Assembly: GCA_003140215.1 (NCBI GenBank)
Contig: PLJL01000001.1
Span: forward strand, 750,535 to 814,534
Direction: 5' to 3'
DNA length: 64,000 bases
From: Vulcanimicrobiota bacterium
Lineage (GTDB): Bacteria > Vulcanimicrobiota > Vulcanimicrobiia > Vulcanimicrobiales > Vulcanimicrobiaceae
Part shown: positions 5,950-49,541 of the stretch, in pieces
How positions within the stretch are numbered: the first letter of the stretch is position 1
How the letters are laid out: every line of letters begins with the position of its first letter
Position numbers and translations under genes: made by a program
Notes under the pieces: generated by a model
The model's input: only the letters and a program-made list of their open reading frames with translations
What the model was told of the DNA's origin: nothing
The model's database searches: none

Positions 5950-8430
<2,481 letters not shown>

Positions 8431-19628: not shown

Positions 19629-19722
19629 TGGCGGGAACGTGTCGGAATCGAACCGACCAGCCGCCTTGCGACGGCCTCACCAGTTTTGAAGACTGGGCGA
19701 GCCACCAGACCCGTACGCTCCC
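19629..19722 (-). tRNA. selC: tRNA-Sec (UCA anticodon)
   Basis: Read on the minus strand this is a 94-nt tRNA with an encoded CCA end. The acceptor stem is 8 bp (GGGAGCGT with ACGTTCCC, one G-T pair). The anticodon stem is CCAGT/ACTGG with loop CTTCAAA, giving anticodon TCA. There is a long variable arm (GCCGTC-GCAA-GGCGGC) and a T arm GTCGG-TTCGATT-CCGAC. The 8+5 bp acceptor/T stack and long extra arm are diagnostic of bacterial selenocysteine tRNA. selA and selB are in the same window about 27 kb away. Confidence 0.95.
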
Positions 19723-36802: not shown

Positions 36803-38188
36803 CTAGCTCGTAGACCGTTCGTCGCGCACCCGCCGGGATTTCAGATCGGTGCGTGCGAGCGCGCCGCTGGGGGCGAACGCGATCTCAGCGCGGATGCCGA
36901 GCTGACGCTTGAGCTGTGCGCCCAGGCGGTAGCGCAACTCGTTTTCGTTGCACGGCCCGGCGAGCTCGGCGCAAATCGTGAGGACGTCGAGCGCTTTGGG
37001 ACGTGAGACGACGATCTCGAACTCCGTCCCCAGCTCGGCGAATTCGCGCAGGACGTCTTCGATGGCGCTGGGGTAGATGTTCTCGCCGCGCACGACGAGC
37101 ATGTCGTCGATGCGCCCGATGATCCCGCGCCCGAAGCGCGGATAGGTGCGCCCGCACGGACACGGATCGTTCGTCCACTCCGCCCGATCGCCCGAGACGA
37201 GCCGGATCATCGGCTGCCCGCGCCGGACGAGCTGCGTGTAGACCGGCGTCCCGGTCGCGCCGTACGGCAGCGGACGCATCGTCGCGGGATCGAGCAGCTC
37301 CGTGTAGACGATGTCTTGCCAGAGGTGCATCCCGGTACGGTGCTCGCACTCGCACAGGTTCATCCAGGGGGTGACCTCGCCCATGCTGCCGCTGTCGATG
37401 CAACGCGCGCCGAACGTCGTTTCGATCAGACGCTTCGTCGCCGGGATCCCCGCACCGGGCTCGCCGGAGAAGAACATGATGCGCAGGCCGAAGTCGCGCG
37501 GGTCGATCCCTTCGGCGCGCGCCGTCTCGGCGATCCGCAACGCGTACGAGGGCGTCCCGTAAAACGCGGTCGGCTTCATCTGCGCCATCCACGAGACCGC
37601 TTGCAGCGTCATCCCCGGGACGCCGGCGCCGAACGGGAACGCCGCGGCGCCGAGCCGTTCGATCCCGGCCAGCGCGCCCCACGAGCCGACGTAGAGTGAG
37701 AAGATCGAGCCGACGAACACCGTGTCGCTGGGCCGCAGGCCGAAGCTCCACATGATGCGCGCGTGCGACTCCGCGATGCGGTCGTAGTCGTCGCGGCTCC
37801 AGGCGAACGCCGTCGGCCGGCCGCTCGTCCCCGAGGTTCCGTGGATGCGGACGATCTCAGCCGGCTCGATGCACAGATACGACCCGAACGGCGGATGCGC
37901 GGCCTGATCGGCGCGCAGGTCGGCTTTGGCGATCGTCGGAACGCGCGCGAAGTCCTCGAGCGATTTCACGTCACCCGGTTCGAGGCCGGCTGCCTGCCAG
38001 CGCGTGCGGTAGAATGGCGCGCGCTCGTACGCCCAGGCCATCAGGCGCCCGATCTTGCCGAGGATGACGCTCGCGCGCTCGTCCTCCGAGATCGTCTCGA
38101 GCGCGGCGTCCCAGTACGGCGCGTCGCTCGGCGGCCGGTACGCCCGGTCGTAGGCGAGCGGCCACGCGACGGGCGCGGCGTCGATCAC
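36803..38188 (-). CDS. hcl: PaaK-like AMP-forming acyl-CoA ligase, probable 2-hydroxyisobutyrate-CoA ligase
   Basis: A 461-residue member of the phenylacetate-CoA ligase-like group: [20 protein letters not shown] (ATP loop), [17 protein letters not shown], and [20 protein letters not shown] with [20 protein letters not shown]. It activates a carboxylic acid to its CoA ester via an acyl-adenylate. Position decides the likely substrate: it is the last gene of the mutase operon (GTG at 38188 overlaps the small-subunit stop), as in known 2-hydroxyisobutyrate-degrading clusters, which pair such a ligase with the mutase. An aromatic-acid ligase is the alternative. Confidence 0.72.
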
Positions 38189-38616
38189 CGCGCCGCGCCG
38201 GCTTCGCGCCGCGAGCGATCCCGGCCGGTCTCGCCGACGATCCGCTCGATGCCGTCGATCAGCTCTTGCGTCGTCGCCTCCGCGTTGAAGATCTCGCGTA
38301 CGCCCAGCGCCTTGAGCTTGGGGATGTCGGCCTCTTGGATCACGCCGCCGCCGACGACCGCGATGTCGTCGACGTCGTGCTCCTTGAGCAGCGCCATGAT
38401 CTTTGGAAAGATCGTCATGTGCGCGCCGGAGAGAATGCTCACGCCGACCACGTCGACGTCTTCTTGCACCGCTGCGGTGACGATCATCTCGGGCGTCTGG
38501 TGCAGGCCGGTGTAGACCACTTCCATCCCCGCGTCGCGCAAGGCCCGCGCGACGATCTTCGCACCGCGGTCGTGGCCGTCGAGTCCGGGCTTGGCGACGA
38601 GTACCTTAATGGGCAT
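38185..38616 (-). CDS. hcmB: B12-binding small subunit of acyl-CoA mutase, probable HcmB
   Basis: A 143-residue cobalamin-binding domain: [20 protein letters not shown] contains the D-x-H-x-x-G motif whose His replaces the lower axial base of B12. [19 protein letters not shown] and [19 protein letters not shown] complete the flavodoxin-like fold. Methylmalonyl-CoA mutases usually carry this domain on the large chain, while isobutyryl- and 2-hydroxyisobutyryl-CoA mutases have it as a separate small subunit as here. The start is ATG at 38616, overlapping the chaperone gene end by 11 bp. Confidence 0.85.
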
Positions 38617-39529
38617 GAACGGGTCCTCCGAGCATGGGGAGCAAGAGATCGATCGCGTCGTTGCGCGTGAGTTCGTGGGCTCGCAGCCGCTCGAGGATCG
38701 CCGCGGCATCGGGTGAATCGAGCGCGGCCAGCGCGTGGCGCACCGCCTCGTCGCGCGCGCGGCGCACCAGCTCGAAGCGGACCGCGCGAACCGCGTTCGA
38801 GTCTTCGGCGCCCCGCCGCGCCCCGAGCGCCGCGAACAATTCGGATACGCCGGTGCCGTCGCGCGCGATGGTCTGCAGCACGGGAATCTCGCGCTTGCCT
38901 TCGCGGACCATGTGCTTGAGGTCGACCGCGGTCGCGTTCGCGCCGGGCCGATCGGCCATGTTGACCACGAAGATGTCGGCAATCTCGGTCAAACCGGCCT
39001 TGATCGTCTGAACGCTGTCGCCCAGCGCGGGGACGGTGACGACCACGATCACGTCGGCGACGGCGACGATCTCGAGCTCGACTTGGCCGACGCCGACCGT
39101 CTCGACGACCACGACGTCGAAGCCCGCCGCATCGGCCAGCCGCACCGCGTCGCGAGTCGCGGGCGCGAGCCCGCCGCCGGCGCTGCGCGAGGCCATGCTG
39201 CGGATGAAGACGCCGGCGTCGCCGGCGTGCCGCTGCATGCGCACCCGATCGCCCAGTACCGCACCGTGCGTGAACGGCGACGACGGATCGACGGCGATCA
39301 CCGCGACGGTTTCACCGTTCGCACGGAAGCCCTCGATCAGCCGGTCGACCAGCGTCGACTTGCCGGCGCCGGGCGGACCGGTCACGCCGATGATGGCGGC
39401 GTGGCCCGCGCCCTCGCGGCGGTGCCCTTGAGCGGCGAGCCGCGCCGCCGTGACCTGGTAGTCCGCGATGCCGTTCTCGACGCTCGTGATCGCCCGCGCC
39501 AGATCGCGGTGCGCGCGGCGGGCGATCAA
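38606..39529 (-). CDS. meaH: MeaB-family G3E GTPase chaperone of the B12 mutase
   Basis: A 307-residue MeaB/ArgK GTPase: [20 protein letters not shown] (Walker A), [60 protein letters not shown] and [14 protein letters not shown]. These proteins load adenosylcobalamin and protect the mutase from inactivation. The start is TTG at 39529, overlapping the large-subunit stop as TTGA. Placement between the mutase subunits indicates it serves this enzyme. Confidence 0.88.
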
Positions 39530-41202
39530 AAGACCGGCGTCTCGACGTACGTCCCGAATACGGGACGCAGCGCGTTGACGATCTCGCCGCCGGTCGCGCG
39601 CGCCTTCACGGCGGCGATCGTCGCCGGCATGAGGTTCTCGTCGGTCTTCGCGACCCGCACGATCTCGTCGAGGGCCCTGCTCACGGCGTTCGCGTCGCGC
39701 GCCGCCTTGGTCTTGCGCAGCCGCGCCAGCTGCCGGTCCGCCGCGCCCTCGTCGGCGTGGTGCAGCTCGACCACCGGGTTGGCGCTGTCATCGCGGTACT
39801 TCGTCACGCTGACGATGTGCCGTTCGCTGGCCTCCTTGCGGCGGTGCAGGTCGTACGCCGCGTCGGCCAACTCCATCTGGAAGTAGTTGTCCTCGAGGCA
39901 TTTCACGACGCCGCCGCGCTTGTCGACCTCAGCGAAGTAGTCGAAGCAGCCCTTCTCGATGTCGGCGGTGAGCCGTTCGAGCGCGTAGGAGCCGGCCAGC
40001 GGATCGATCGTGCCGCCGATCCCGACTTCTTCGGCGATGATCTGTTGGGTGCGCAGCGCGATCTTCATCGCCGGCTCGCTGGGAATCGAGAGGGCCTCGT
40101 CGTAGCCGTTGGTGTGCAGCGACTGCGCGCCCCCGCAAACGGCGGCCAGCGCTTCGATCGCAGTGCGGGCGATGTTGTTGAGCGGCTCGCGTGCGGTGCA
40201 CGACACGCCGGCGGTCTGACAGTGGAAACGCAGCCGCATCGATTCGGGCTTGCGCGCGCCGAAGCGCTCCTTCATGGCGCGCGCCCAGACGCGGCGCGCG
40301 GCCCGGAACTTGGCAACCTCTTCCAAGAAGTCGATCTGTGAGACGAAAAAGAACGACAGGCGCGGCGCGAAGTCGTCGACGTCGATCCCGGCCTTCACGA
40401 CCTCTTCGACGTATGCGATCCCGGCCGCCAGGGTGAAGGCGACCTCCTGGATCGCCGTGCTCCCCGCTTCGCGCGTGTGGTAGCCGCTGACGTTGACGGG
40501 GTTGTAGCGCGGCAGGTGCTGCGCCGAATAGGTGATGGTGTCGCGCACGATGCGCATCGCCGGTCGCGGCGGATAGACCCACTCCTTCTGCGCGACGTAC
40601 TCTTTGATGATGTCGTTCTGGATCGTCCCCGAGAGCTTGGTGCGGTCGAAGCCGCGCTCTTCGGCGACCACGAGGTACATGGCGAGTAGGATCCAGGCCG
40701 ACGGGTTGATCGTCATCGAGACGCTGATCTGCTCGAGGTCGATCCCAGCGTAGAGATCGAGCATGTCGTCGACGCTGTCGATCGCGACGCCCTCGCGCCC
40801 GACCTCGCCCTCGCTGCGCACGTCGTCGGAGTCGTAGCCCATGAGCGTCGGCATGTCGAAGTCGGTCGAGATTCCGGTCTGACCCTGCGCGATGAGGAAC
40901 CGGAAGCGCGCGTTCGTGTCGTCGGCGGTGCCGAAGCCGGCGATCTGGCGCATCGTCCACGGCTGCGCCCGGTACATCGTGGGGTAGGGCCCACGCGTGT
41001 ACGGGAACTGGCCCGGGAAGCCGATGTCGCGGCTGAAGTCGATGTCCGCGACGTGGGCGGGCGTGTAGACCCGTTCGAGCACTGCCCCGCCTTGGGTGCG
41101 GAACGCCTCACGCGATTCGGGTCGGCGTGCGGTAAAGGGCAGCAGCGTCAGTTGCTCCCACTCGCGCTGCTCGTCGGCGATGGTCTTCTCGGTCGTCTGC
41201 AC
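39526..41202 (-). CDS. hcmA: B12-dependent acyl-CoA mutase large subunit, probable 2-hydroxyisobutyryl-CoA mutase
   Basis: A 558-residue mutase catalytic chain without a fused B12 domain. Family motifs are [56 protein letters not shown] and the His of GYH. The substrate-determining residues are I87 (Tyr89 in methylmalonyl-CoA mutase, Phe80 in isobutyryl-CoA mutase), D114 (in [10 protein letters not shown]) and Q205 (in YVAQKEW; Arg207 in methylmalonyl-CoA mutase). I recall the corresponding triad of Aquincola tertiaricarbonis HcmA as Ile90, Asp117 and Gln208, a constant offset of 3. HCM interconverts 2-hydroxyisobutyryl-CoA and 3-hydroxybutyryl-CoA. It starts with GTG at 41202, with GGAGGT upstream, and heads the operon. 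Confidence 0.82.
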
Positions 41203-41225: not shown

Positions 41226-41237
41226 ATTGTATACAAT
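41226..41237. promoter_or_regulatory. GntR/FCD operator, site 1
   Basis: ATTGTATACAAT is a perfect 12-bp palindrome that contains T-x-GT-xxx-AC-x-A, the pattern bound by FadR/FCD-type GntR regulators. It overlaps the -10 of the mutase operon promoter. Confidence 0.75.
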
Positions 41238-41269: not shown

Positions 41270-41281
41270 GGTGTATACAAT
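41270..41281. promoter_or_regulatory. GntR/FCD operator, site 2
   Basis: GGTGTATACAAT repeats 10 of 12 bases of site 1, with core TGTATACA. It lies just before the regulator's ATG at 41285, over its probable -10 and start of transcription, 44 bp from site 1. This arrangement implies autoregulation plus control of the divergent operon. Confidence 0.7.
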
Positions 41282-41284
41282 CGT

Positions 41285-41953
41285 ATGGCATTGAACCTCG
41301 CCCGGGGGTTGGAGCCGCGCTCGGAAGGCCTCGTCGACGCGCTCCGCGAGGCGATCCTGACGGGACGCTACGCCCCTGGTACCCGCTTGGTCCAGGAAGA
41401 GCTGGCCGAGGCCTTCGGGATGAGCCGCATCCCGCTGCGCGAGGCGCTGCGCCGGCTCGAAGGTGAGGGCCTGGTCGTGATCACCCCCAACCGGGGCGCG
41501 ATCGTGCGGCCGCTGGCGCCCAAGGACATCGTCGACCTCTACGAGCTCAGGCTCGCACTCGAATCGCTTGCGCTCCGGCGCGCGGCGGAGCGCTTTGCGG
41601 ACCTGCGAGCCGCGACGAAGCAGCGCCATGCGCAGGCGCGCCAAGCGATCGCGGCGCGGAATCTGACGGCGCTGTTCCGGCTCGACCGCGACTTTCACGC
41701 CGACATCGCCGCGGCGTCGGACAACGCGCACCTCGTCGCCGCCCTGGGAGCGCAGTGGTCGCAGATCATGCGCGTGATGCACGCGTACTTCCAAGCCGGG
41801 GACTATCCGGTCGACACCTGGGACGATCACGAGGCGATCGCCGACGCGGTCGCCCACGGCGAGGCCGAGCTGGCCGTCGAGCGCATGAGCGCGCACCTCA
41901 CCGGAAGCCGCGATCGCATCTTGGCGACGCTGCGCGAGAGCGCCGCGCGCTAG
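41285..41953 (+). CDS. GntR family transcriptional regulator, FCD (FadR) subfamily
   Basis: A 222-residue regulator. The winged helix is at about 10-75 (EGLVDALREAILTGRYAPGT, EELAEAFGMSRIPLREALRR, VVITPNRGAIVRPL). The C-terminal FCD ligand-binding domain follows (LYELRLALESLALRRAAERF, RLDRDFHADIAAASDN, and the metal-binding His of DDHEAIADAV). FCD members bind carboxylic acids or acyl-CoA, so a substrate of the adjacent mutase operon is a likely inducer. ATG at 41285 follows operator site 2 by 3 nt, so the mRNA may be almost leaderless. Confidence 0.88.
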   Translation: MALNLARGLEPRSEGLVDALREAILTGRYAPGTRLVQEELAEAFGMSRIPLREALRRLEGEGLVVITPNRGAIVRPLAPKDIVDLYELRLALESLALRRAAERFADLRAATKQRHAQARQAIAARNLTALFRLDRDFHADIAAASDNAHLVAALGAQWSQIMRVMHAYFQAGDYPVDTWDDHEAIADAVAHGEAELAVERMSAHLTGSRDRILATLRESAAR

Positions 41954-42033: not shown

Positions 42034-43296
42034 ATGTTCGGCTGCAGCGAGCACTGGATCGGGAAGCGTTTCTCCCACGCGTTGACCGGATTCTTGAGCG
42101 ACGAGAAGCGCCGGCGCGAGCTGCGCGCGCACGACGCGGTCGACGGCGCCGAGGTCGAGGAGCGCTACGAAGGCTGGCGCGTGTCGCGCGCCGGCGCCCT
42201 GAGAATCGGCGGCGCCGCCGCTGCGTTCGCACTGGCCGACACGGTGCTGCCCGACACGACGTCGGCGGCCCCGACCGCCGGTAACTCCTCGTACGACTGG
42301 ACGTCGACGGTAAAGCCGGTCGCGCTCGGGCGCACGCACGTCGTGCCGTCGAACAACGACACGGTCGTTCAAGGCCTCTTCGATCCCGCCAAGGCGCCGA
42401 TCCTCAGCGTCGATTCCGGCGACGTCGTCGTGTACGAGAACACCTGGACCCATTTCCTCAACAAGCTTCAACCCGGCGTGCCCGCCGACGAGCTCGCGAA
42501 CATGCGCCGGAACAGTCCGGGGCGCGGCGTGCACAGCATCATCGGACCGATCGCGGTCAAAGGCGCTATGCCCGGCGACACGGTGCAGATCCGGTTCCTG
42601 CGCCTCGAGACCGTCGGTTTCGGCGCGAACTTCCACAACCCGGGCGCGACGATCAAGACGGGGACATTGCCGGACGAGTTTCCCGACGGTCACGTCCACT
42701 ATTTCAAGCTCGATCCCGCGCAGCAGTACGTCGCCTTCAACGATCGCATTCGCCTCGAGCTCAAGCCGTTTCAGGGAACGATCGGCATCGCCGCGGAGGG
42801 CGACAAGGCGGTCAGCTCGGTCGCGCCCGGCAAGCACGCCGGCAACATCGACCTCAAAGACTTGACCGCGGGCTCGTCGCTGTTCGTGCCGGTGATCCAT
42901 CCCGGTGCGTTGATCTTCACCGGCGACTCGCACGCGCTGCAAGGCGACGGCGAGGTGAACCTCACCGCGATCGAGACGGCGATGAAAGAAGTCCGGATGC
43001 AGGTGATCCTGCACAAGAACGTGGCCCCGAAGTGGCCGTTCGCCGAAACCGCGACGCACTGGATCGCGCTGGGACTCGATCCGTCGGTGAACGACGCGTT
43101 ACGCGTGGCGTTGCGCAACACTATCGACTTCCTGCACGACAAGGCCGGGCTCAGCCGGGACGACGCCTACGGGCTGGCCTCGATCGGCGTCGACTTCCGC
43201 ATCACCCAGATGGTCGACGTGCAAAACGGCGTCCACGCGATGATCCCCAAGTCGATCTTCACGCCGGACTACCGCAAGAGCATCGCCATCGTCTAA
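42034..43296 (+). CDS. acetamidase/formamidase family protein
   Basis: A 420-residue FmdA/AmdA family protein: TVVQGLFDPAKAPILSVDSG, VHSIIGPIAVKGAMPGDTVQ, FSVPVIHPGALIFTGDSHAL-like (FVPVIHPGALIFTGDSHALQ) and GDGEVNLTAIETAM are typical. The family hydrolyses short amides to acid and ammonia. An extra 65 residues at the N-terminus include a hydrophobic segment (about 51-70, after SRAGALRIGG), so the enzyme may be exported or anchored. A strong GGAGGTGA site precedes ATG 42034. It lies in the same direction as the FCD regulator gene and may belong to its regulon. Substrate unknown. Confidence 0.8.
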   Translation: MFGCSEHWIGKRFSHALTGFLSDEKRRRELRAHDAVDGAEVEERYEGWRVSRAGALRIGGAAAAFALADTVLPDTTSAAPTAGNSSYDWTSTVKPVALGRTHVVPSNNDTVVQGLFDPAKAPILSVDSGDVVVYENTWTHFLNKLQPGVPADELANMRRNSPGRGVHSIIGPIAVKGAMPGDTVQIRFLRLETVGFGANFHNPGATIKTGTLPDEFPDGHVHYFKLDPAQQYVAFNDRIRLELKPFQGTIGIAAEGDKAVSSVAPGKHAGNIDLKDLTAGSSLFVPVIHPGALIFTGDSHALQGDGEVNLTAIETAMKEVRMQVILHKNVAPKWPFAETATHWIALGLDPSVNDALRVALRNTIDFLHDKAGLSRDDAYGLASIGVDFRITQMVDVQNGVHAMIPKSIFTPDYRKSIAIV

Positions 43297-46200: not shown

Positions 46201-46310
46201 CAGACGATCTGCGGCAACGTTTCGAGAAACGCGCGCAGGTCGGCGTCGAGAATCGAGGCGCCGCTCGCCTGCGCAGCGGCGGCGGACTGGGGCGGGGGAA
46301 GACCGCTCAA
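43293..46310 (-). CDS. PAS-PAS-GAF-GAF-PP2C-HATPase signalling protein
   Basis: A cytoplasmic multi-domain sensor of about 1005 residues. PAS 1 lies at about 20-140 (FLETLPQIVWRTTADGLHDY, RWFLARATPLRDGSGRI), PAS 2 at 145-265 and two GAF domains at about 275-430 and 470-620. A PP2C/SpoIIE phosphatase follows at about 640-850 (IGGDWYDAFRV, LTIGDVAGSGLDAAATMAG, LYTDGLIEAGRD). The last domain is an anti-sigma-type HATPase (FAELIGNVKRYAPGPVDVAL; GRGLFIVATI). One protein thus holds both the phosphatase and kinase-like anti-sigma ends of a partner-switch. The start is probably TTG at 46310, overlapping the selB stop as TTGA. Confidence 0.85.
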   Translation of the reverse strand: MSGLPPPQSAAAAQASGASILDADLRAFLETLPQIVWRTTADGLHDYFNGFWHDYSGLTPEASLGDRWTGAIHADDAVAATAAWRATVREEAPYDIEFRLRGRGGAYRWFLARATPLRDGSGRIVHWYGTCTDIDAQKRVEVQFRAIAEAIPQMVFTALPDGSMEYLNAHVYDYTGIERDPAAWSLRALVHSDDLAAMFGAWRSSIASGDPYEAETRLLRADGAYRWFIVRASALRDPETGALTRWFGTCTDVDDLHGAATRDAFLARADELFGVELDPEAIVRAVARAAVESFADYVFFDLAAEDGQLRRAAVDHRDPSGRERLQRSLGEAAPAEHPIRPVSTAWRSGESVLVPRIDASWWRRAAMDDAHFERMRGEGLSSLITVLITSRGRRYGVLSFCRAHASQSYGDFELVTAEELARRVGAALENAQLYQEARAAAEAHRTIAEREAFYARLGEELAETLYLRETLDIATRLLVPSFADWAVVNLIDQDDALFLAASHHRDPTLDARTRRLLDLRYLAAEAHGGSPAVVRTKQPVIYEHVPQGGIGAVTGPYREAIGALGVTSAAIVPIAFGGAVRGTIAIMYDRTSERHYSQADLPFFVEVARRLSPAIGNAEAYERERRVAWTFQAAALTMDLPRVAGISFDALYEPSRSEALIGGDWYDAFRVADGRIVLTIGDVAGSGLDAAATMAGIRQSLRGAAAINPDPSVMLDAADRVLRWQAPERFVTAWVGVLDPVWATLMTAGAGHPPPLERRADGSVRQLPAGGLPLGLRERGGDVTRQLVLTPGSVLLLYTDGLIEAGRDVIAGEAAVALALRGADVETAPARAIHQAVLGDIVASDDVALLVVAFRDSLFALGGERGAQRWTFDVNDRAAATQARTAMVEVLERRGVAELERTIAELIFAELIGNVKRYAPGPVDVALDLSGEFGVLHVVDSGEGFQHNARLPADALSENGRGLFIVATIAEEFAVTRVPGGGAHARAVLPGRLGGVPEPAYTSAN

Positions 46311-48169
46311 CGCAGGCCGCTTTGCCGCAACGCGCGCACGTCCCCGTCGCGGACCGTCACACCGGTGGCGTCGAACCACTCCATGAGCGGCACGGCGTAC
46401 TTACGCGTGGTTCCGACCGCGTCGCGGAATCGGGACATCGTGATGGGCCCGGTGCTGCGCACGGCGGCCTCGAGGCGCTTGCGAATCTCGGCGATCTGGA
46501 CGCCCCGATACACGTCGCCCCCGACCTTGACCAGCGCACCGGTCGCTAGGAGCGTATCGAATGCCTGCGCGATCCCCGGGATCCGGGCTCGGCGCAGCTC
46601 GCCGACGACGTCGTCGAGCGGCACGGGGACGAGCGGTTGCGCGGCGTCGGCGACGACCACGCGCTCGAAGAACGCACGCTGTTCTTCGCTGAGGCGCGGC
46701 CGATGGCTCACGGTCGCGAAATAGCCCGCCCGCGCCGCCAGCCGCCCGTCCTCGGCCTCAGCGGCCAGAAAGCGCACCAGAAAACCTTCGTCGAGGCTGA
46801 GCTCGCGCGCCAGCGCGAGAGAGGTGGTTCCGAGCATCCACGCCGATTCCGATTCACGCCGCAGCAGCGACGCGCCGATGCGCTCGGCCAGCGCGTCGGC
46901 CGCCGCGCCGTCGAGGTAACCGGCCGGCTTTTGCAGCCGCCGCGCCGAGCCGCTCGCGACGAGCTCGGCCAGAATCTCGACGGCCCGCTCTTCGCGCACG
47001 TTCGCGCGTGCGCCGAGCTCGGCGGCGGTACGCGGGCTCAGCCCAGCCGCGGCGAGCACGCTCGCGACCGCCTCGACGTCGGGCGCGACCGCATCGAACG
47101 ACGCCACCGCACCGGCGCCGACGGTCCCGCCGCCGAGCAGCGTCTTGGGTGAGACCGAGCGCACCACGAAGGCCTCGCCGGGATAGGTCGTCGTCGCGCG
47201 GCGCAGATGCAGCGTCGCCCCGGCCGGTGTCGCCGCCGGCGGTGGTGCGGCATCGTCGAACACCAGCGTGCCCAGAATCTCGGCCGCGCCGAGATACGCC
47301 CGCACCGGCGTGCGCCGGTGCAGGATTCGCTCCGCACCGGGTAGCGCGCGAAAGCGCACCGACAGCGCCGCATTCGGGGCGAACGTGTCGTCGCCGAGCA
47401 CCGCGCCGCGCCGCAGCTCACCGACCTCGACGCCGGGCAGGTTCACCGCGACGCGGGCACCGGCGCCGACGGCGTCGCGCGGGGATCCGAAGACGTGCAG
47501 GGCGCGCACCCGTACGGCGCGGCCGGGCGGCTCGAGCCGCAGCGTCTCACCGACGCGCAGCGTCCCCTGCATCAGCGTTCCGGTAACGATCGTGCCGTGG
47601 CCGGGCAAGGCGAAGACGCGGTCGACCGGCAGAAACACCGGAGCGCCGGCCGGGCGTGGCGGCAACGCGGCGAGCGTCGCGTGGATCGTGGCGCGCAACG
47701 CGTCGATCCCGTCGCCGCTCAGGGTGGAGACCGCGATCGCCGGCGCGCCCTGCGCGACGGTTCCGTCGATCGCCGCACGCACCTCGCGCTCGACCTCGGC
47801 CAGGGCGGCATCGTCGACGAGATCGCGCTTGGTCAAGACCACGATCGCCCGCCGCACGTTGAGAAAGTCCACGATCGCGAGGTGCTCGAGCGTTTGGGGA
47901 CGGACGCCTTCGTTGGCGGCGACGACCAGGAGCAGCACGTCCATCCCCGCCGCGCCGGCGAGCATGTTGTGCAGGAAGCGCTCGTGTCCGGGGACGTCGA
48001 CGATCCCGGCTTCGACCCCGTCGTCGAAGCGCAAATGCGCGAACCCGAGGTCGAGCGTCATCCCGCGCAGCTGCTCTTCAATCCAGCGGTCGGGATCGGT
48101 TCCGGTCAGCGCGCGCACCAGCGACGATTTCCCATGATCGACGTGACCCGCCGTGCCGACGACGTGCAC
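46307..48169 (-). CDS. selB: selenocysteine-specific elongation factor SelB
   Basis: A 620-residue SelB: GTPase domain with GTAGHVDHGKSSLVRALTGT, GMTLDLGFAHL, DVPGHERFLHNML and VLTKRDLVDD; EF-Tu-like domains; then winged-helix repeats at the C-terminus that bind SECIS RNA (GPITMSRFRDAVGTTRKYAV near the end). It delivers Sec-tRNA to UGA codons. GTG at 48169 lies 7 nt after the selA stop, so the two are co-transcribed. Confidence 0.95.
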   Translation of the reverse strand: MHVVGTAGHVDHGKSSLVRALTGTDPDRWIEEQLRGMTLDLGFAHLRFDDGVEAGIVDVPGHERFLHNMLAGAAGMDVLLLVVAANEGVRPQTLEHLAIVDFLNVRRAIVVLTKRDLVDDAALAEVEREVRAAIDGTVAQGAPAIAVSTLSGDGIDALRATIHATLAALPPRPAGAPVFLPVDRVFALPGHGTIVTGTLMQGTLRVGETLRLEPPGRAVRVRALHVFGSPRDAVGAGARVAVNLPGVEVGELRRGAVLGDDTFAPNAALSVRFRALPGAERILHRRTPVRAYLGAAEILGTLVFDDAAPPPAATPAGATLHLRRATTTYPGEAFVVRSVSPKTLLGGGTVGAGAVASFDAVAPDVEAVASVLAAAGLSPRTAAELGARANVREERAVEILAELVASGSARRLQKPAGYLDGAAADALAERIGASLLRRESESAWMLGTTSLALARELSLDEGFLVRFLAAEAEDGRLAARAGYFATVSHRPRLSEEQRAFFERVVVADAAQPLVPVPLDDVVGELRRARIPGIAQAFDTLLATGALVKVGGDVYRGVQIAEIRKRLEAAVRSTGPITMSRFRDAVGTTRKYAVPLMEWFDATGVTVRDGDVRALRQSGLR

Positions 48170-48176
48170 GTCGGAG

Positions 48177-49541
48177 TTAGGGCGCCGCGGCCCGGAGCGC
48201 CGCCGCCACGTCCCCGTCGCGTTGCGACGGGATCGCGCGCAAGTCGATCAGCACGCGGTCGCCTGCGACGCGCGCCACCACGGGCGGCGCGCCGCCACGC
48301 AGTCGCGCCGCGGCCGCGTTTGCGTCGGCGCGCGCCGGGCGCCAAGCCACGGCAACCGATTTCAGCGGCGCAAGCGGCAGCGCACCACCGCCCACGTAGC
48401 CTGCCACGTCGTCGATGCGCAGGTCGAGACCCTCCAACTGCGCACACAGCGCCGCGGCGCGCAGGCGCAGCTCGTCGAGCGGCGTCGCGAGCATTCGGTA
48501 GAACGGGATGCGCTCGCGGCCGGCGGGATCGAGGTGCAGGCGCAGTGTCGCGGCGAGCGCGGCGATTGTCGGAGCGCCGATCCGTAACGCGCGCAACAGC
48601 GGGTTGGCGCGCAGGCGCTTGACGAGCGCGGTGCGGCCGACGATGATGCCGGCCTGAGGACCGCCCAGCAGCTTGTCGCCCGAGAAAGCGATCAGGTCGA
48701 TGCCGTCCGCCACGGCGTCCTGCACGGTGCGCTCGCGCGGCAAACCGTAGGCGCGCAGATCGACGAGCGCGCCGCTCCCAAGATCTTCGACCACCGGGAG
48801 CCCGGCGCGGCGGCCGAGCGCGACGAGCTCCGCGCCCGACACCTCCGAGACGAAGCCCTCGATGCGATAATTGGACGGGTGCGCGCGCAACAGCAGCGCG
48901 GTGCTCGGGCCCAGCGCGCGCTCGTAGTCGCCGATTCGAACCTTGTTGGTTGCGCCGACCTCGACCAGGCGCGACCCGCTGCGTGCCAAGACCTCCGGCA
49001 AGCGGAACCCGCCGCCGATCTCGACGAGCTGATTGCGTGCGACGATCACCTCACGCGCCGAGCCGTCGGGGGCGCGCGCGAACGTATCGAGCACCAGCAG
49101 GACCGCAGCCGCGCAGTTGTTGACGACGAGGCCGTCCTCGGCGCCGGTTGCGGCGCGCAGCAGCGCCCCCAACCGATCGTAGCGCGAGCCCCGCGAACCG
49201 GCGTCGAGATCGTACTCCAGATTGGAGGCACCGGCGGTCGCGTCCCCGATCGCGTCGAGCGCCTCGCGGGCCAGCGGCGCGCGGCCGAGGTTGGTGTGGA
49301 GCAGGATGCCCGTGCCGTTGAGGACCTCCCCGAGCCCGCGCCGGGCCTCCGCGGAGGCGCGCGCCAGGACGTCCTCGACGACGGCGCCGGCCGGCGGCGT
49401 CGGCTCCTCGGCTCGGGCGGCGTCGAGCGCTGCGTCGACGTGGCGCTTCACGGTCGATGCGCCCAAAAGCGCGACGAACCGCACAACGCGCGGTTCGTCG
49501 AGGATGCGGTGGACGGCCGGCAGGCCGCGCAGATCAGGCAG
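48177..49541 (-). CDS. selA: L-seryl-tRNA(Sec) selenium transferase
   Basis: A PLP enzyme converting Ser-tRNA(Sec) to Sec-tRNA(Sec): GRGLGEVLNGTGILLHTNLG-type region, GLVVNNCAAAVLLVLDTFAR, FRLPEVLARSGSRLVEVGAT and the PLP lysine in IDLIAFSGDKLLGGPQAGII. The first standard start (GTG at 49484) would remove the conserved LPDLRGLPAVHRILDEPRVV segment, which is encoded in frame just upstream. The only candidate start is CTG at 49541, 3 nt after the trxA stop TGA and in the same frame as trxA. With it the protein is 454 residues, normal for SelA. Confidence 0.92.
   Translation of the reverse strand: MPDLRGLPAVHRILDEPRVVRFVALLGASTVKRHVDAALDAARAEEPTPPAGAVVEDVLARASAEARRGLGEVLNGTGILLHTNLGRAPLAREALDAIGDATAGASNLEYDLDAGSRGSRYDRLGALLRAATGAEDGLVVNNCAAAVLLVLDTFARAPDGSAREVIVARNQLVEIGGGFRLPEVLARSGSRLVEVGATNKVRIGDYERALGPSTALLLRAHPSNYRIEGFVSEVSGAELVALGRRAGLPVVEDLGSGALVDLRAYGLPRERTVQDAVADGIDLIAFSGDKLLGGPQAGIIVGRTALVKRLRANPLLRALRIGAPTIAALAATLRLHLDPAGRERIPFYRMLATPLDELRLRAAALCAQLEGLDLRIDDVAGYVGGGALPLAPLKSVAVAWRPARADANAAAARLRGGAPPVVARVAGDRVLIDLRAIPSQRDGDVAAALRAAAP

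Follow-up and report, generated by a model that had tools for sequence, protein, structure and literature searches.

Gene content of the locus

The 64,000-nucleotide stretch of Vulcanimicrobiota contig PLJL01000001.1 analysed here (the window) carries on its minus strand four genes resembling those for a 2-hydroxyisobutyryl-CoA mutase (HCM) and its partner, a 2-hydroxyisobutyrate-CoA ligase (HCL). They encode a large mutase subunit, a GTPase chaperone, a B12-binding small subunit and a ligase (Table 1). An earlier sequence-only reading had proposed an HCM operon complete with ligase and chaperone at this place. All four genes were found intact at the coordinates it had claimed, and its description of them as coupled is correct, because neighbouring frames overlap by 4, 11 and 4 bases. 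It had, however, overlooked a divergent gene for a GntR-type regulator and two palindromic sites. The four operon genes are under purifying selection, with ratios of nonsynonymous to synonymous substitution rates (dN/dS) of 0.105-0.212 in 12 of 12 comparisons with three members of the genus, and the GC content of the operon stretch resembles that of the remainder of the window.

As in HcmAB, the large and the B12-binding subunits are encoded separately. The small subunit matched TIGR00640 (148.1 bits) and PF02310, has DGHDRG as its DxHxxG motif, and is 55-57% identical to the small subunits of Methylibium petroleiphilum PM1, Py2 and A. deltaense. The MeaB protein, whose gene adjoins that of the mutase, scored above the cut-off of TIGR00750 (263.9 bits) and matched PF03308, and the Walker motif GPPGAGKS can be read from its sequence. 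Its guanine-specificity motif is NMAD, not NKxD. NMAD is also found in the other matching clusters of the Eremiobacterota type except L017, which has NKAD; elsewhere this motif is SKCD (PM1 and Py2), NKAD or NKSD.

The gene content had been likened to that of known HCM clusters. Indeed, the clusters of PM1, Py2 and A. deltaense encode the same four proteins plus a GntR regulator, and the window's set equals the one published for hcl/hcmAB/meaH clusters with GntR in section 5 of PMC7176365.

Table 1. Features of the candidate operon and its surroundings, in window coordinates (I-D-Q: Ile, Asp and Gln at the three signature positions of the mutase)
Feature	Position	Strand	Characteristics
Mutase large subunit, hcmA-like	39526..41202	-	558 aa, GTG start; 4r3u 731.7 bits, I-D-Q signature, HCM clade
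MeaB/MeaH-type GTPase chaperone	38606..39529	-	307 aa, TTG start; TIGR00750, PF03308, GPPGAGKS
B12-binding small subunit, hcmB-like	38185..38616	-	143 aa, ATG start; TIGR00640, PF02310, DGHDRG
2-Hydroxyisobutyrate-CoA ligase, hcl-like	36803..38188	-	461 aa, GTG start; 6hdw 547.7 bits, HCL side of tree
GntR/FCD-family regulator, divergent	41285..41953	+	222 aa from ATG; PF00392 and PF07729
Operator-like palindrome ATTGTATACAAT upstream of mutase	41226..41237		sole match in the window's genome; genus-wide conservation
Second, imperfect palindrome copy adjoining GntR start	41270..41281		44 bases from the first; kept in 8/10 genus members
Acetamidase/formamidase-family protein, possible associate	42034..43296	+	420 aa from ATG; Tat-like N-terminus; PF03069

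Signature residues and phylogeny of mutase and ligase

When compared with solved structures, the large subunit scored 731.7 bits with the HCM 4r3u, against 461.9 bits with the best methylmalonyl-CoA mutase (MCM). In the alignment to 4r3u, Ile87, Asp114 and Gln205 fell on chain residues 101, 128 and 219. As the construct is longer by 11 residues at its N-terminus, these correspond to positions 90, 117 and 208, a shift that follows from chain residue 573 being the final residue of the 562-aa PM1 protein. The correspondence to Ile90, Asp117 and Gln208 with a constant offset of 3, as put forward in the sequence-only reading, is thus right, and the Tyr and Arg that it had ascribed to MCM at the first and third positions were seen in human MCM in the same alignment. 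Phe at the first position is presumably the mark of isobutyryl-CoA mutase (ICM). The window's genome encodes two further large subunits, one with Phe-Ala-Gln at these positions (F-A-Q, 53% identical) and one with Tyr-Ala-Arg (Y-A-R, 49% identical).

As had been foreseen, automatic annotation would call the protein an MCM: the NCBIfam model that fits it best bears the name 'methylmalonyl-CoA mutase N-terminal domain', and MCM is also the annotation given to the homologues in M. petroleiphilum and Xanthobacter autotrophicus. All three mutases of the genome passed the TIGR00641 cut-off, the window mutase with the lowest score, indicating that this model is superfamily-wide and does not separate HCM from MCM. 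The one-chain MCM model NF006944 gave a score of 608.8, under its cut-off of 876, which says little because the window protein is without the B12 domain of that model. A structure model of the mutase reached a mean predicted local distance difference test score (pLDDT) of 79.6, dropping below 50 over residues 70-81, a stretch shortly ahead of the first signature position. Foldseek ranked 4r3u at the top; the TM-scores were alike (0.84-0.85 for HCM, 0.80-0.85 for MCM), with root-mean-square deviations of about 9 angstroms, so that this model does not tell HCM from MCM and yields no geometry of the active site.

Mutase trees were built without the three signature columns, after removal of 8 short fragments and 17 duplicates. 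The quick tree had 84 rows, 41 of 125 being left out (of 71 further I-D-Q rows, a random draw kept 30). For the careful tree with 60 rows, another 24 were omitted, namely 7 long branches, including one I-D-Q row and both rows with Val-Asp-Gln (V-D-Q), and 17 rows that were thinned. In the quick tree, the window mutase fell into a clade of 56 rows with the HcmA proteins of PM1 and Xanthobacter, supported by 100 in the Shimodaira-Hasegawa-like approximate likelihood ratio test (SH-aLRT). In the careful tree, 43 rows with an HCM signature (42 I-D-Q, one with Leu-Asp-Gln, L-D-Q) lay on one side of a branch with 100 bootstrap and 99 SH-aLRT support. Outside the HCM clade were the Y-A-R rows, including E. 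coli ScpA, and the F-A-Q rows, of which a haloarchaeal one was the nearest relative. On the placement against MCM and ICM that the sequence-only reading had named as decisive, the mutase therefore groups with HCM and not with Y-A-R or F-A-Q rows, in trees that held no characterised IcmA or RcmA.

Within the HCM clade, 18 Eremiobacterota mutases formed one group (SH-aLRT 99, quick tree), and rows from NC10/Rokuibacteriota and Nitrospinota were found on the Eremiobacterota side of the deepest HCM split in the careful tree. The clade of the quick tree also took in one L-D-Q row and, on a long branch, one V-D-Q row. The latter stems from a plasmid of Sinorhizobium sp. K101 (L007:4506-10054), where the mutase gene is accompanied by an enoyl-CoA hydratase gene and a gene for an AMP-binding ligase of a different kind. 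This mutase, which its long branch puts inside the HCM clade or close to it, may use a different substrate.

The ligase points independently to the same probable substrate as the mutase, 2-hydroxyisobutyrate. It scored 547.7 bits with the solved 2-hydroxyisobutyryl-CoA synthetase 6hdw, against 229.4 bits with the best PaaK. In a tree of 80 rows (12 of 92 left out), 71 HCL-type ligases stood apart from 9 PaaK-like ones with 100 SH-aLRT support, and the window ligase lay on the HCL side, within an Eremiobacterota group of 16 (support 97) that mirrors the mutase tree. Ligase genes in three genomes (G061, G077, G130) had at first seemed broken; the supposed internal stops are normal terminal stops, the alignment having overrun the gene end.

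Distribution and regulation

The phylum was surveyed in 149 genomes, which were counted by hand, with a threshold of >500 bits for HCL (the next score was 232). An I-D-Q mutase was present in 23 genomes, HCL in 21 and both in 19, a strong association (Fisher p 3.6e-18, a statistic that ignores kinship). In four of the six discordant genomes (G032, G123, G127, G130), contigs break off within the cluster. The mutase is carried by 10 of the 11 genomes of the window's genus, two of these being cut by contig ends. In the window's family, three genomes (G096, G107, G118, with loci L109, L110 and L111) have a mutase nested among the proteobacterial ones and not of the Eremiobacterota type, indicating that the function was acquired at least twice in the phylum. 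A recent gain by the window's genome was also considered and is unlikely, as the GC content is window-like and both mutase and ligase fall inside Eremiobacterota groups.

Relatives outside the phylum were taken as the best 80 of at least 592, with a neighbourhood of 7.5 kb and contig ends not individually sorted. Ile90 was part of one of the two search patterns; therefore, these loci give no independent evidence on that residue. Among the matches listed, the closest named relatives (91% identical) were metagenome-assembled genomes (MAGs) that bear the name Candidatus Eremiobacterota or candidate division WPS-2 in their titles; the host belongs to Candidatus Eremiobacterota. The best 80 bore ten further phylum names in all (Pseudomonadota, Actinomycetota, Rokuibacteriota, Methylomirabilota (NC10), Acidobacteriota, Chloroflexota, Myxococcota, Nitrospinota, Nitrospirota and a planctomycete), of which single assignments may be wrong, many of the named relatives being MAGs. 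Within the neighbourhood, a ligase was found in 69 of the 80, a small subunit in 68, MeaB in 63 and a related GntR in 37. Judged by its sequence, the operon is a genuine HCM/HCL operon and belongs to a known, widespread system. In a partial literature collection, we found no printed mention of hydroxyisobutyr- compounds together with Eremiobacterota, WPS-2 or Vulcanimicrobiota.

The palindrome ATTGTATACAAT has no other match within one mismatch in the window's genome, and all 10 genus members examined, the window among them, have it upstream of the mutase. At a spacing of exactly 44 bases, 8 of these 10 also have the second palindrome; it is missing in L158 and L159, and no divergent GntR gene was found at the locus in these two. 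Paired palindromes together with a divergent GntR fit a local, autoregulated repressor, with ATTGTATACAAT as the putative operator. A divergent or upstream GntR is usual in published hcm clusters, as far as the available text of PMC7176365 goes. The window's GntR shares 29-33% identity with its counterparts in the clusters of PM1, Py2 and A. deltaense. A scan for sigma-70 promoters found no site.

Directly behind the GntR gene lies a gene of the acetamidase/formamidase family, which likewise stands beside GntR in L012, L153, L154 and L157. It is pure speculation that its product might free 2-hydroxyisobutyrate from an amide. Farther away, the window encodes a selenocysteine tRNA (19629-19722, minus strand) as well as SelB (46307-48169, minus strand) and SelA (48177-49484, minus strand), so the genome probably makes selenoproteins. 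An open frame at 5950-8430 on the plus strand fuses a sodium:solute symporter domain with a FecR domain, an unusual pairing.

Proposed pathway, alternatives and known systems

The scores of mutase and ligase, the tree placement and the gene set all support the operon proposed in the sequence-only reading. We put the probability at roughly 0.86 that the locus is an hcm/hcl operon whose products would convert 2-hydroxyisobutyrate to 3-hydroxybutyryl-CoA. In this pathway, of which we infer all activities as well as flux direction, stereochemistry, repression and inducer, the ligase would form 2-hydroxyisobutyryl-CoA from 2-hydroxyisobutyrate, ATP and CoA. The two-subunit, adenosylcobalamin-dependent HcmAB would then shift the CoA-carbonyl group in a radical 1,2-rearrangement, yielding 3-hydroxybutyryl-CoA, predicted from Asp114 (Asp117 of HcmA) to be the (S) isomer. 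MeaB would load and guard the B12 cofactor, and one match to a cobalamin adenosyltransferase family was found in the window's genome, which is 87% complete. In the same genome, three open frames contain 3-hydroxyacyl-CoA dehydrogenase domains, and at least five frames score above the thiolase cut-off. With these families encoded elsewhere in the genome, the product could reach acetyl-CoA. Probably acting at the paired ATTGTATACAAT sites, the GntR/FCD protein would keep the operon and its own gene repressed as long as neither the substrate nor the CoA ester of the substrate is present.

Several observations weigh against this assignment. The split between the Eremiobacterota branch and the characterised type is the deepest within HCM (95/83 on each side, careful tree). 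The V-D-Q mutase of the Sinorhizobium plasmid, next to which lie a ligase of another family and an enoyl-CoA hydratase, falls inside the clade (SH-aLRT 93), and membership of the HCM clade alone is therefore no proof of substrate. Two genomes of the phylum have the mutase, and no full HCL gene was found in them: in G076, no more than a short ligase fragment (45% identical) turned up, on a different contig, and in G096 nothing but PaaK-like ligases. Among the best 80 of at least 592 relatives, 11 have no HCL-type ligase nearby and 43 no related GntR. The palindrome was not found in the intergenic regions of PM1, Py2 and A. deltaense, and an operator shared by the window with any of these three was rejected for that reason. 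In addition, the roles of Ile90, Asp117 and Gln208 in HcmA are presumed ones.

The mutase might act mainly on related short or branched 2-hydroxyacyl-CoA esters, such as 2-hydroxy-2-methylbutyryl-CoA or lactyl-CoA, or work mainly from 3-hydroxybutyryl-CoA to 2-hydroxyisobutyryl-CoA. It belongs to an uncharacterised branch that a deep split separates from the known type, and the reaction is described as reversible in the accessible text of PMC7176365. One characterised HCM has a lactyl-CoA side activity, whereas the Aquincola tertiaricarbonis enzyme has no detectable activity with lactyl-CoA, both according to the part of PMC11599936 at hand. Since the three signature residues and an HCL-type ligase are all kept, we consider such a shift in substrate or direction unlikely. 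A mutase of the (R)-specific RcmAB type (RCM) is very improbable, as Asp114 occupies position 117, where RCM is said to have Val, reportedly described by Weichler in 2015. RCM clusters contain hcl and meaH too, but RcmAB is only distantly related to HcmAB (both from the available text of PMC7176365).

For an ICM, the two-subunit plan would be the same, and Gln at the third position is common to F-A-Q rows; these rows, however, have Phe and Ala in place of Ile and Asp and lie outside the HCM clade. As the genome has a separate F-A-Q paralogue and the operon an HCL-type ligase, hardly any weight is left for this function. The MCM of the annotation deserves just as little credence: the strong matches to TIGR00641 and PF01642 come from superfamily-wide models, Ile87 and Gln205 stand where human MCM has Tyr and Arg, and a separate Y-A-R paralogue is present in the genome. 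The locus thus flags a misleading automatic annotation.

A variant of the proposed hcm/hcl operon was found in two other genomes of the phylum. In G119 (L157:12012-13757), a 581-aa thiamine enzyme is encoded between the small subunit and the ligase; it scored 678.5 bits with the solved actinobacterial 2-hydroxyacyl-CoA lyase (AcHACL), against 222.9 bits with the next enzyme. The lyase of G125 (C12:242636-244345) is 77% identical to it and has the same place in the operon. Both genomes combine an Eremiobacterota-type mutase with a ligase from the proteobacterial HCL branch. The LQ and IE pairs of AcHACL are kept in the alignment of the G119 lyase; by our numbering, they would be L127-Q128 and I492-E493, residues named in the accessible part of PMC8760513. 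PM1 has a lyase of the same kind by its hcm cluster (551 bits), and the window's genome is without a close one, its best match to the G119 lyase being 35% identical. G119, which belongs to the window's genus, is very probably the cultured Vulcanimicrobium alpinum WC8-2, and the operon in this strain makes the prediction testable. V. alpinum WC8-2 was the first cultivated member of the Eremiobacterota, and neither 2-hydroxyisobutyrate nor acetone is among its carbon sources in the available text of PMC9758169.

The separate HCM branch, the lyase-bearing version in a very probably cultured strain and the clean operator add to the interest of the proposed hcm/hcl operon. HCM was discovered in bacteria degrading the fuel additive methyl tert-butyl ether. 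HCM clusters from pristine places may indicate a natural source of 2-hydroxyisobutyric acid (2-HIBA) or a related compound, as suggested in the accessible part of PMC7176365, and an operon that has its own operator and occurs in 10 of the 11 genomes of an Eremiobacterota genus fits this idea. We tentatively suggest, with considerable doubt, that the Eremiobacterota harbour an HCM branch that is old, has been passed on mostly by vertical descent, is unlinked to fuel-ether pollution and acts on 2-hydroxyisobutyrate, or a near homologue, from a natural source. V. alpinum and one relative would have gained a lyase and a different ligase, joining acetone plus formyl-CoA, 2-hydroxyisobutyryl-CoA and 3-hydroxybutyryl-CoA in one operon of an aerobe. 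If true, the lyase-bearing operon would be a possible route of acetone or one-carbon assimilation besides the breakdown of 2-hydroxyisobutyrate.

Of the known systems, RcmAB from Kyrpidia tusciae and Bacillus massiliosenegalensis has the same overall reaction and the hcl/meaH context; it differs in being (R)-specific and distantly related to HcmAB, a comparison made by description only, from the available text of PMC7176365. The lyase-HCL cluster of Actinomycetospora chiangmaiensis (AcHACL; 7pt1) has the ligase step in common with the window, according to the same text. M. petroleiphilum PM1 and A. tertiaricarbonis L108 (4r3u, 6hdw) have the same three active-site residues, and the PM1 proteins are 58.9% (large subunit), 55.0% (small subunit), 49.2% (MeaB, over 240 aa), 52.6% (ligase) and 32.9% (GntR) identical to those of the window. 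The gene order is large-MeaB-small-ligase in the window, whereas it is small-ligase-MeaB-large in PM1, which has genes for an adenosyltransferase, a lyase and a dehydrogenase alongside that do not stand beside the window operon. PM1 and the window also have different operators and lie on opposite sides of the deepest HCM split. G119, very probably V. alpinum WC8-2, shares the divergent GntR and the same palindrome with the window, and its mutase, MeaB and small subunit are 85%, 79% and 87% identical; what sets it apart is the AcHACL-type lyase encoded between its small-subunit and ligase genes, and the proteobacterial branch to which its ligase belongs.

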